NCBI RefSeq assembly: GCF_003967175.1
Contig: NZ_AP018553.1
Span: forward strand, 1,723,982 to 1,787,981
Direction of reading: 5' to 3'
DNA length: 64,000 nt
DNA from: Sulfodiicoccus acidiphilus
GTDB taxonomy: Archaea > Thermoproteota > Thermoprotei_A > Sulfolobales > Sulfolobaceae
The notes below the pieces were generated by a model. The model made no database searches, was not told the DNA's origin, and saw only the letters and a list, made by a program, of their open reading frames with translations. Positions 43,476-48,178 of the stretch are shown piece after piece. The translations under genes were made by a program, and so were the position numbers. Position 1 is the first letter of the stretch. The number at the start of each line of letters is the position of its first letter.

Positions 43476-45038
43476 CTACATCGTGTTGGAGTTGGTCTTT
43501 ATCTCCCTAGCCGTCCTGGATATGAAGTCCACTGCCCGATGCCCAATCAGTTCCCTGTAATCCCAACTAGCCAGGAGGAGGTTATAGGCGTCGAGGTACC
43601 ACTTCTTCACCGCCGATCCTAAGTTCCCCATTTCCTTCGCAGTACTGAGCAGGTCGTCAGTGGTGAGGCGTTGGGGATTGCCTGTGGACATCTCCTTCAA
43701 GGCCAGGTTAGAACTCGTCCTCCTCACCAAGTCTATCACCTCCGAGGCCGAGGCCCACTCTGTGGCCTTGGCGAGCCTCTCTAAGTCCACGTCCGCCTCG
43801 ACCTTCATCCTCAAAATGGCCTTCTGGAAAAGGATCTTCCTCTCCTCGAAGTTCGGATGTCTGACTAGGAACCACCTTCCGAACCTCCCCCCTCTAAGTA
43901 GGGCGGTATCCACGTACCACGGGGAGTTGGTTGTTCCCACTACCACCACTTTCCCTCTCTGCCCCTCCATTGTTGAGAGGATGTGGAGTAGGGCCGAGAG
44001 GGAGTGTACAGAGTTGTCCCCCATCCTTCTCTCCCTCGCCATTCCCAGGCCATCGAGTTCCTCCAGGTCGACTATGAACGGCTCGTGTTTCTTGGCGTAG
44101 TTGAAGATCTTCTGCAGGTTCCGCTCACTCACACCGACGAAGGGACTCAGGATGGAGCTCTCCTCGATTACGACGTAGGGTATACCCAGTTCTCCAGAGA
44201 TGGCCCTCACAATGAGGGACTTCCCGTTCCCAGGTGGACCGTAAAGCAGTATTGGACTGACGGTGTCGAGACTGTACCTCTCGGCCAGGTCTGGTCTCGC
44301 CAAGGGGATCACCAAGCTCCTCCTTATCTCCTCCTTCACCTCTTCTAGTCCGACAACGTCCAAGAACTTCACTTCGGCCACCGCCGACTTTACCGACTTT
44401 ATTTCACCGTTTTCACCGTACTCGTAGAACGGGAACCCACGTTGTTGTTCTTCGTCGTCGTCGAGGTGTTCTTCGTCGTCGTCGAGGTGTTCTTCGTCGT
44501 CGTCGAGGTGTTCTTCGTCGTCGTCGAGGTGTTCTTCGTCGTCGTCGAGGTGTTCTCCTTCCCTTTCTTCTCTGCCTTCCGCCGCTTTTGTTTCCTTGTT
44601 CGAGAGCTCTTCCCCAAGTCTGAGGTAGTCCTCCGGAGTGGAGAGGCCGTCCATTGGTCCGAGTTCCTTAAGTATCATTCCAACAGTCTTGTAAACGTCC
44701 GCCGCGTCGGGCTGCTTTTCCATGAGTTGTACCAAGGAGTTGAGGACCATCATCAGGCGTTCCCTTTTATTGACTCCTTGAATTTCTGCGTTAATGGTAG
44801 CCATGCCTGCATTGAATAGGACGTCGAGACACCTGGGCTTATGGTCTGAACAGAACAGGGAGTACGCCAACCTGTAGGAGTAGTAGGACATAAGGTAGTT
44901 CCCTGACCTGAAGAGTTCGTTTCCCAACCTATAGAGAGTCTCGAGGTCGACTTCGGTACTCTGGGATCCGCTGAACTCAAATTTACACCTGCTACACTTC
45001 CCGTTCATCTCCCCGCCGCAGAAGGGGCACCGTTCCAC
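43476..45038 (-). CDS. AAA+ ATPase with zinc ribbon, helical-repeat region and acidic linker
   Basis: A 520-residue protein. Residues 4-18 are a zinc ribbon (CPFCGG...CSRC). Residues 30-145 are helical and TPR-like. Residues 162-196 are five exact copies of EHLDDDE. From 225 on there is a CDC48/Vps4-like AAA+ domain: Walker A YGPPGNGKS (266-274), pore loop SPFVGVSERN (298-307), Walker B FIVDLEELDG (321-330), sensor 1 GTTNSP (N371) and arginine finger GGRFGR (383-388). In Walker B the usual Asp-Glu pair reads Glu-Glu when aligned to LDGL, a conservative change. The combination suggests an unfoldase or remodelling ATPase with a substrate-binding N-terminus. I do not know a named family with this layout. 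ATG 45038; monocistronic, with an A/T patch (ggaaatttaaatt) about 28 bases upstream. Confidence 0.8.
   Translation of the reverse strand: MERCPFCGGEMNGKCSRCKFEFSGSQSTEVDLETLYRLGNELFRSGNYLMSYYSYRLAYSLFCSDHKPRCLDVLFNAGMATINAEIQGVNKRERLMMVLNSLVQLMEKQPDAADVYKTVGMILKELGPMDGLSTPEDYLRLGEELSNKETKAAEGREEREGEHLDDDEEHLDDDEEHLDDDEEHLDDDEEHLDDDEEQQRGFPFYEYGENGEIKSVKSAVAEVKFLDVVGLEEVKEEIRRSLVIPLARPDLAERYSLDTVSPILLYGPPGNGKSLIVRAISGELGIPYVVIEESSILSPFVGVSERNLQKIFNYAKKHEPFIVDLEELDGLGMARERRMGDNSVHSLSALLHILSTMEGQRGKVVVVGTTNSPWYVDTALLRGGRFGRWFLVRHPNFEERKILFQKAILRMKVEADVDLERLAKATEWASASEVIDLVRRTSSNLALKEMSTGNPQRLTTDDLLSTAKEMGNLGSAVKKWYLDAYNLLLASWDYRELIGHRAVDFISRTAREIKTNSNTM
44451..44555. repeat. 21-bp minisatellite, five perfect units, in-frame
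   Basis: Five identical 21-base units encode EHLDDDE five times. Perfect identity at third positions points to recent slippage expansion, and the copy number is expected to vary between strains. Confidence 0.93.
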
Positions 45039-46063: not shown

Positions 46064-47113
46064 TCAGGTGAACTCCTCCCTCGCCTTTCTCAGTATCGGT
46101 TCGACCTTCCTCGTTATGGTGTCTACGTCGAAGTGCCACTCGCCGTCCCTGCCGAAGTACTCGTAAGGGATGGTAGCGGTGAGGACGTACTCCCAGGTGG
46201 GTTTGGTGGGACTGAGGTAGAAGGTGAGGTCGTGTCCTTCGGCCACGAGTTGAGATAGGAAGGTGGTTGTGGGTAACAACTGATGCACTTGTCCCAGTGC
46301 TGCTGTGTAACACACGTCGTCTGCGCACGAGGTGAGGACGGTCGTCGGTATCCTAGAGAGCCTACCCATCAATTCTTTCGGATGGTAGACGGTGAGTCTG
46401 AACGCCGACCTGAAGAGCCATACGTTGTACCCCACCACCTGTCGTTTCTCTACGTGTTTAGTCCAGTGATACACGGCCTCCTTGAAGGGCAAACCCAGTT
46501 CGATCGCCACTTCCTTCAAGGATAGATCTGCCCTCTCTTGTCTCTTTCCTTGTAGGTTCACGTCCACCCAGTCCGGCCTTAGAAACGTTTTTGAGTTCAC
46601 TTCGTACCTCATGGGGTCCCTCTCCTCTTCCTTCATTTCCCCGAAGGTCCCGCTCTCGAAGTCGAAGTTCTCGTAATCTGGCTTATAGTAGTACCTCTCC
46701 TTGATCTCGGCAATATCGTAGGACGAGCATAGTTCGTTCTCCACTAAGTTGTTCAGGAGAGAGGTGAAGTCTCGACTGCCGTGAGGAAAGTAAACGACCA
46801 AGGAAAACCTCCTAGGCGAATTAACGTCCTTCACTACCGACGACACTATACCTCCTAGAGCGTCGTAGATGAACTTGGCACTCGCCATGGGCGAGCACGC
46901 CATGGTTACCAACGTCAAGGAAAGTCCCAGAGCTGAGGGATCGTTGACTGGAAAGACCCTCATGCCCAGATGGGTGCGCAACCAGTTAACGATGGAGGGT
47001 ACGTCGATGTCGGGGTTTTCCTTAGAGAGTTCTGTCAAGTTGTCACCGTGGACGAAAAGGGAATTGACCACCCTCAGCACTTGACTCTTCTCCACCGTTA
47101 ACACTGGGTGCAC
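46064..47113 (-). CDS. two-HTH regulator, AsnC/Lrp-like repeat architecture
   Basis: A 349-residue protein that looks like two regulator modules in tandem. Residues 5-50 and about 195-240 (LSLKEVAIELGLPFKEAVYHWTKHVEK) are helix-turn-helix segments. Each is followed by a beta-alpha-beta-beta stretch similar in layout to an Lrp ligand domain (SLTLVTMACSPMASAKFIYDALGGI, then TTVLTSCADDVCYTAALG). Between them is a long charged linker. I cannot assign it to a named family. GTG 47113 is the only standard start in the right place; a TATA element (gtctttatattc, minus strand 47147-47158) lies 40 bases above, which leaves a short leader. A 9-bp inverted repeat covers that leader, consistent with autoregulation. 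Confidence 0.6.
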   Translation of the reverse strand: MHPVLTVEKSQVLRVVNSLFVHGDNLTELSKENPDIDVPSIVNWLRTHLGMRVFPVNDPSALGLSLTLVTMACSPMASAKFIYDALGGIVSSVVKDVNSPRRFSLVVYFPHGSRDFTSLLNNLVENELCSSYDIAEIKERYYYKPDYENFDFESGTFGEMKEEERDPMRYEVNSKTFLRPDWVDVNLQGKRQERADLSLKEVAIELGLPFKEAVYHWTKHVEKRQVVGYNVWLFRSAFRLTVYHPKELMGRLSRIPTTVLTSCADDVCYTAALGQVHQLLPTTTFLSQLVAEGHDLTFYLSPTKPTWEYVLTATIPYEYFGRDGEWHFDVDTITRKVEPILRKAREEFT

Positions 47114-47159: not shown

Positions 47160-48178
47160 TAGAGACTAGCTTCCAGTTGGGACGACGAACTGTGAATTCC
47201 TGTGCGAGTCGTAGGACCTATCTCCGGTCTTCTGAAACTTCTGCCCCACCGTAAACTTACGTGAATCCCCAGAACGGGAAACTACGAAAGGCCTAACTTC
47301 ATTAAGGGATAAGGTTCCTGTCGACTATAAGTGCGACTGTGATTAAAGATAGTTGCGACGGGAGAAAAGAGGTATTAAGGACTCCAGGGTGAAGTAACCA
47401 TTTACAAAGTCTTTGATACTTTCAGTGCGGTAACGAAGATTCCTTTCTGTAGGGAGGCTTGATTAAGTGAGTTAAGCTAGGGACCTTAGGTTGAAAGCCC
47501 TTATCCCTATCGTTCAGAAGTTAAGGGGATCTTCTTGCCCAACCCATTAGAGGTGCACTTCTAAGTCTGATAACTGTTCACAAAGAGAACTCTCCCCTAA
47601 GAGCCTAGAGTGTATAGAAACTAGCAGAGTCAACTAAATACAAAACCACTTTTACCTAACAACCTCCTATTACTATTTAACTGTTCCCGAGCTCAGCGTT
47701 GCTTGGGGCCATCACCTTTCACCTCCTTTATTTTGGTTCCTCATGTAATATACTCGCGGAATTCATGAGTAAGCGTTTCTATCGTAGACTAAGTTAACAA
47801 GACAGGAAGGGACGGTCGCCAGAACGAAACTCTTATTAAGGAACAACTGAAAAATCTAGAATTCACTACAAGGCCATTTCGTGGTATTACGATAAAAAAA
47901 GTTTTATATAAGCAGAGGGACGGTGCCCTGAGTGAGGGACCGAAAGAAGGTTCCTCTCGGAGGTATGAGGAGAGGACGAATCCCAAACCTAGCGGGTAGG
48001 AAGGTCCAGTAAGTGGAGGCTGAAGGCTGTGCTAGAACGTAGCTCGGTCCTGGCGTTGCGAATATGGAGCCCGTCAAACAGTCGACGACGTGAGCGAAAA
48101 CAGTCTACCGGCGCTAACTTTCCAAGAGGACTCTCGGCCAAGAGGACTCTCGGCAGATGGTGAGAAGTCTCGAGGGTC
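47160..48178. other. 1 kb without a gene; possible untranslated RNA
   Basis: A very good TATA element (agttttatataag, 47899-47911) reads rightward but no credible reading frame starts 25-40 bases later. A transcript beginning near 47930 would contain GC-rich inverted patches. No known RNA family is recognised. A 16-base tandem repeat is at 48122-48153. Confidence 0.4.
48122..48153. repeat. 16-bp perfect tandem duplication
   Basis: The 16-base unit ccaagaggactctcgg occurs twice without a gap. It lies 26 bases beyond the stop of the secreted-protein gene. Confidence 0.85.

Follow-up and report, generated by a model that had tools for sequence, protein, structure and literature searches.

The locus described here raises the question of what kind of machine is encoded by a gene that joins a zinc ribbon, TPR-like helices, an acidic linker with exact repeats and an AAA+ ATPase core, and of what such a machine might act upon. 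The gene lies within the window, by which we mean the whole 64,000-nucleotide stretch of DNA analysed, of Sulfodiicoccus acidiphilus HS-1T, a heat- and acid-loving archaeon. The genome of this strain is a single contig of 2,353,189 bp, which is also the length published (PMC6647314); the G+C content is 57.1% for the window and 54.3% for the gene, against a genome-wide value of 51.15% given in the same paper. The answer we favour, with a probability of about 0.55, is that the product belongs to the classic AAA+ ATPases of the Vps4/CdvC-Cdc48 kind, with a single AAA domain; the gene would be an accessory one, and the enzyme would remodel or dismantle those complexes that its zinc-TPR head selects. 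Motors of this type are well known; the combination of one with a zinc-TPR head and an acidic tether is rare and unusual.

The features of the gene are collected in Table 1. The domain order of the original prediction was upheld by Pfam, by the alignment and by a model of the head, and the observation as a whole is real, was described correctly and concerns something uncommon. If transcription were driven from the putative TTTAAA element, the transcript would be nearly leaderless. Our family alignment consists of three members, namely the window protein and its relatives in archaeon HS-7 and in genome G026, each about 34% identical to the window protein; as only these three members were found, the evidence from conservation is thin.

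Table 1. Features of the gene and its upstream region, in window coordinates
Feature	Position	Strand	Basis or remark
Whole gene: zinc ribbon, TPR-like helices, acidic linker, AAA+ core, C-terminal helical tail	43476..45038	(-)	ORF, 520 aa, GTG start
TATA-like TTTAAA	45062..45067	(-)	about 26 nt 5' of the GTG start, by sequence alone
Zinc-ribbon cysteines C4, C7, C15, C18	44985..45029	(-)	invariant in 3/3 members
TPR-like helical domain, aa 32-157, six helices in model	44568..44945	(-)	phmmer, Pfam, head model, Foldseek, VIA-align
Acidic linker, aa 147-202, 55% Asp+Glu	44433..44600	(-)	boundaries hand-set; pLDDT <50 over aa 82-201
Five identical 21-bp units, EHLDDDE x5, aa 162-196	44451..44555	(-)	Tandem Repeats Finder, translation
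Classic AAA core and lid, aa 218-470	43629..44387	(-)	Pfam AAA aa 263-391; Foldseek and VIA-align matches
Walker A GPPGNGKS, aa 267-274	44217..44240	(-)	sequence
Walker B E326-E327, Glu for Asp	44058..44063	(-)	sequence, alignment
C-terminal tail, aa 472-516	43491..43625	(-)	NLGxxxKxWYxxA conserved in three members

The core is recognised by Pfam as an AAA domain with 103 bits, and its proposed CDC48/Vps4-like character was borne out by Pfam, phmmer, NCBIfam, Foldseek and VIA-align. The solved relatives found by phmmer are Cdc48/p97, whose match extends over two AAA domains (E 1e-68; 124.8 bits for the best single stretch), and archaeal CdvC/Vps4 (E 1.3e-36), whose 129.8 bits in one stretch are the best single-stretch score among the matches listed. 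In VIA-align, p97 (Z 25.5, rmsd 3.0, 276 aligned) and the Vps4 of M. sedula (Z 25.1, rmsd 2.9, 261 aligned) were tied. Structure prediction followed by Foldseek, the check suggested together with the original prediction, likewise placed the core near p97 and Vps4 and ranked TPR entries first for the head. CDC48/VAT has a similar AAA core and supplies the top-scoring curated NCBIfam model for the window protein; membership of CDC48 itself was rejected, with 147.2 bits versus a cut-off of 802.65 and a single AAA domain where CDC48 has two, and the Cdc48 N-domain is not listed by Pfam for this protein. Membership of CdvC was rejected as well (142.2 bits versus an NCBIfam cut-off of 650).

The window protein contains the pore-loop aromatic residue and its Gly, the Walker A Lys, the catalytic Glu, the sensor-1 Asn and both arginine fingers, and from these residues a remodelling machine, as had been suggested, appears to be the most likely function. 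The Glu reported in place of the Walker B Asp is indeed there, both relatives having D-E, and among the 159 AAA stretches retained by the length filter for this comparison, it occupies that position in 3. Because it is so rare, ATP hydrolysis may be slow or lost. This residue is the starting point of an alternative explanation, according to which the window copy is decaying, relaxed constraint accounts for its repeat expansion and its Walker B Glu, and the protein is no longer an ATPase. Such decay would agree with the length of the branch leading to the window copy, 1.29 changes per column where the relatives have 0.42 and 0.58, and with the confinement of the repeats to this copy. However, the 520-aa frame is intact, all other catalytic residues checked are kept, the substituted Glu is still acidic, and the zinc cysteines and the tail motif are retained; we consider decay unlikely.

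The preferred reading gives a specific role to the head. Its zinc ribbon follows the pattern CPxC...CxxC, and the invariance of the four Cys in all three members is in agreement with the domain originally proposed. The helices that follow were also predicted, and their TPR-like nature is suggested by several methods, with modest scores. Firstly, aa 33-59 match two designed proteins, one of them named TPR, in phmmer (whole-sequence E-values of 0.0026 and 0.0038, no single stretch being significant by itself), and Pfam TPR_2 is found weakly at aa 33-61 (13.9 bits versus a cut-off of 27, E 0.062). Secondly, the head was modelled by itself, since AlphaFold with the alignment of three rows gave a whole-protein model of low quality beyond the core (mean pLDDT 58); the head model of 159 aa (mean pLDDT 70.5, pTM 0.61) consists of a small beta-rich zinc knuckle followed by six helices. 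Foldseek placed designed TPR proteins first for this model (best E 0.0031, none at 0.001 or below), natural TPRs, for example that of CHIP/STUB1, appearing in the rows below at E-values no better than 0.003. VIA-align gave Z-scores of 10.5-12.8 among the matches listed (best 5a6c_A, Z 12.8, rmsd 2.8, 115 aligned), a range in which helical repeats can match by their arrangement alone, rows 2-5 being designed toroids and not TPRs. MIT was not among the listed matches of the head model in either search, although absence from these listings does not exclude it. On all of this evidence, the head is likely to be a TPR domain.

The linker contains the five perfect EHLDDDE units that had drawn attention to the gene, and these are identical at the DNA level and in frame. 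Tandem Repeats Finder reported them at 44446-44556 (period 21, 5.3 copies, 100% matches, score 222), and the 21-mer, with at most one mismatch allowed, occurs five times genome-wide, always inside this gene. The use of the same codons in all five units points to a recent expansion or to strong homogenisation. The repeats make up 35 of the 56 linker residues of the window protein and, in the alignment, were found in neither the HS-7 nor the G026 relative; since both relatives lack them, the repeats, like the Walker B Glu, are private to the window copy and not a property of the family. The original prediction had expected repeat number to vary and thereby to tune linker length. A fixed repeat number in all relatives had been named beforehand as a refuting outcome, and the count came out as zero repeats in 2/2 relatives; a putative link of repeat-driven linker length to function received no support from these two sequences. 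What the three members share is a charged linker of 51-69 aa (51 and 69 aa in the relatives, versus 56 aa here, all with hand-set boundaries) with 27-55% Asp+Glu and no common sequence; that of G026, with 36% Asp+Glu plus 23% Lys+Arg, is charged and not purely acidic. A spacer that is kept at similar length without conserved letters would fit a tether, three sequences being few. Whether the length of the tether is important in a classic AAA+ motor could be tested on these exact repeats, which provide a simple natural experiment. The repeats also hold open an antisense frame (44442-44819, (+) strand) encoding a VVVEVFF repeat, and 5 of the region's 7 terminator-like sites stem from them, all on the + strand; both are probably by-products.

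According to the reading we favour, the zinc ribbon and TPR head would dock a substrate or an adaptor, and the disordered acidic tether, about 50-70 residues long, would let the head move over the ring that the ATPase is expected to form. Threading through the aromatic pore loops, powered by ATP hydrolysis, would then unfold the substrate or dismantle a complex. The EHLDDDE repeats would represent a recent in-frame expansion in a segment in which length and acidity seem to outweigh sequence. A head of this kind enlarges the repertoire of archaeal single-AAA motors.

The gene appears to be an accessory one, patchily distributed within the family. A profile of the C-terminal 131 positions detected it in 3 of 31 family genomes with 213-226 bits, the other matches listed reaching 64 bits at most. 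Two of the three members were included among 300 sampled phylum genomes, and both stood out (next match 62 bits). In a collection of 84,980 species, 66 stretches fitted the pattern and one, that of archaeon HS-7, was confirmed, the scan being non-exhaustive, as it missed the G026 gene; a single-sequence scan of the same collection confirmed none of 59 stretches. A search with the head alone gave a match at E 0.01 in 5 of the 31 family genomes, and the matches in G018 and G027, which are weak and lie in frames with several stops, were discarded. No match was found in the single same-genus genome, which is 87% complete. An origin from a virus or a plasmid was rejected: the tail profile yielded 141 stretches in viral contigs, none of them a confirmed relative, and the G026 tail gave no match in phages, while its matches to 34 plasmid records were all incomplete and stayed below 80% coverage. 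The whole window protein matched 62 phage records (two of them Acidianus viruses) and 1323 plasmid records through the AAA core, none over 80% of the query. From a full-alignment search of viral contigs, the best 80 of 122 relatives were retained, general AAA loci serving as outgroups only. Among the papers listed in the literature searched, which included PMC7159879 and PMC11188069 and lacked most subscription journals, no description of this layout was found.

A further question is where the core belongs. Its sequence appears to lie near the CdvC/Vps4 and TPR-AAA ATPases, without firm placement. In one tree the three members group with actinobacterial TPR-AAA proteins (support 82/80), whereas in two others they stand beside CdvC, with support of 71/44, and of 43/0 once the window row was removed; the actinobacterial grouping was not rejected in the latter two (AU p 0.164 and 0.21). 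In both CdvC-adjacent trees, CdvC, the trio and the actinobacterial proteins, the last joined by a viral protein, form a group with loose support (87/79 and 74/77). A motif considered as a private mark of the trio and the actinobacterial proteins, GxSE[RK]N, was dismissed, Asn being present there in 48 of the 159 stretches, CdvC included.

The CdvC-adjacent trees suggest a second alternative, in which the protein branched off from CdvC/Vps4, with a zinc-TPR head in place of the MIT head, and serves to remodel membrane or cytoskeletal polymers. The Vps4/CdvC plan is helical head-linker-AAA, and archaeal CdvC/Vps4, found in the same archaeal order, has a helical head, a linker and a single classic AAA domain, the window protein differing from it by the TPR-like nature of the head and by the zinc ribbon. 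The trio and CdvC also have TNxPW in common, and the single-stretch phmmer score and the fit to M. sedula Vps4 given above point in the same direction. On the other hand, the tree support drops without the window row and another tree prefers the actinobacterial proteins, the score is far below the CdvC cut-off, and in the model just 7 residues separate lid helices 431-452 and 460-470, between which Vps4 has its beta domain. In addition, no ESCRT-III or cdv gene is present among the three neighbours scanned with Pfam, one of which is enolase-like and two of which are family-less. We regard this offshoot as improbable.

The closest known layout, of TPR, linker and AAA, is found on actinobacterial plasmids. 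Hence, the statement that no known family has this architecture holds only if the zinc ribbon is counted. Proteins such as those of Streptomyces sp. NBC_00158 (WP_331727751.1) and Actinomyces oris (WP_271289561.1) have a head, a linker and a single classic AAA domain as here; the Streptomyces and Actinomyces plasmid proteins measure 416-465 aa with a helical head and a linker, their core is 33% identical over 284 aa, and their tail has WxxxA as well. The head is called TPR by Pfam in NBC_00158 and by alignment in the others. The zinc-ribbon cysteines, present in the window family, are absent from the four proteins aligned; judged by this comparison, the zinc ribbon is the added part. The loci also differ. 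In 4/4 annotated actinobacterial loci the next gene abuts, coding for a TPR protein in 3 (by Pfam in NBC_00158, by annotation in A. oris and KN37) and a hypothetical protein in 1, whereas the downstream neighbour of the window gene is enolase-like and lies 334 bp off. An hhalign comparison of the trio with the actinobacterial proteins was not significant (tail E 0.022, probability 2%; head E 0.94); CdvC gave a better score with the tail of the trio (E 0.0006 over 14 columns), and a better one still with the actinobacterial tail (E 9e-6). The pair of TPR-AAA and abutting gene was seen at L161, L174, L175 and L176, further unannotated relatives occur in Nonomuraea gerenzanensis and Streptomyces nigrescens records, and 48 plasmid records were retrieved with the tail, the match covering 80% or more of the query in 10 of these. 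Vps4-like ATPases, located next to a gene encoding a TPR and 6TM protein, have been reported to have moved from archaea into bacteria (PMC11237479), and these may be related. Separately, a viral contig (L177:2728-3819) encodes an AAA protein of 363 aa, which has a short helical head and a WYxxA tail, between genes that by eye resemble virion head genes, where a motor seems unusual.

The surroundings of the relatives suggest a third alternative, namely a defence-island ATPase that would assist CRISPR-Cas or some other antiviral system, or occur alongside it, and might for instance break up viral or effector complexes. The HS-7 gene is flanked by two CRISPR arrays, 2.1 kb and 0.8 kb off, at least four arrays of one repeat family lie within 1.37-1.49 Mb of that genome, and a type III-B Cmr cassette starts about 7 kb downstream with Cmr3 (L148:17179-17982), followed by Cas10, Cmr6, Cmr1 and Cmr4. 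In G026, an eight-repeat array lies 1.8 kb from the gene and another 5.3 kb. Thus, 2/3 members are within 2 kb of an array, which would be unlikely for random genes, since Sulfolobales genomes carry two to ten arrays (PMC7694759). Furthermore, the best PADLOC matches of the three members are IetA anti-phage ATPases (92, 96 and 130 bits). IetA is a single-AAA ATPase and the best PADLOC family for the window protein; membership was rejected at 78.2 bits versus an NCBIfam cut-off of 510, and no protease is present among the three Pfam-scanned neighbours here. The window copy itself is not close to an array: the array finder detected none inside the window, the nearest published one ends 66 kb from the gene (PMC6647314), and the nearest RAMP gene is 49 kb away. 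A shared operon was rejected too, as blastp of the ORFs from about 102, 70 and 59 kb of G000, G004 and G026, respectively, showed only this gene to be common to all three neighbourhoods. Pairwise matches were limited to a 70% identical G000-G004 pair far from the gene, one short weak pair, the antisense frame of the gene, and two G000-G026 pairs of 24-25% identity in common families (ABC ATPase, flavoprotein-like). No tRNA was found in the window or in the eight neighbourhood stretches scanned. Because the association with arrays was seen post hoc, and arrays and accessory genes share variable regions anyway, we keep the defence link as possible but weak, and a defence role as unlikely. Still less probable is the more elaborate proposal of an undescribed Sulfolobaceae zinc ribbon-TPR-AAA+ family of CRISPR islands, antiviral in function, with a docking head on an acidic tether, the length of which changes by 21-bp slippage in this lineage. 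If CRISPR-adjacent placement holds in more genomes, it would hint at a motor in archaeal defence.

Some minor observations concern the neighbouring DNA. The relatives lie between CRISPR arrays within L148:3720-15548 in HS-7 and L149:2626-12317 in G026, and the same gap in HS-7 encodes a 154-aa protein (L148:7273-7737) without a Pfam, PADLOC or PHROGs family. At L149:11835-18000, a short, partly degenerate eight-repeat array lies beside small membrane-looking proteins, one of which matches a viral family of unknown function (phrog_9637, E 1.8e-9); this stretch might be an integrated element. In the window, a 349-aa protein encoded on the same strand as the gene (46064-47113) has no Pfam, PHROGs or PADLOC family, and a 16-bp unit forms a perfect head-to-tail pair at 48122-48154.
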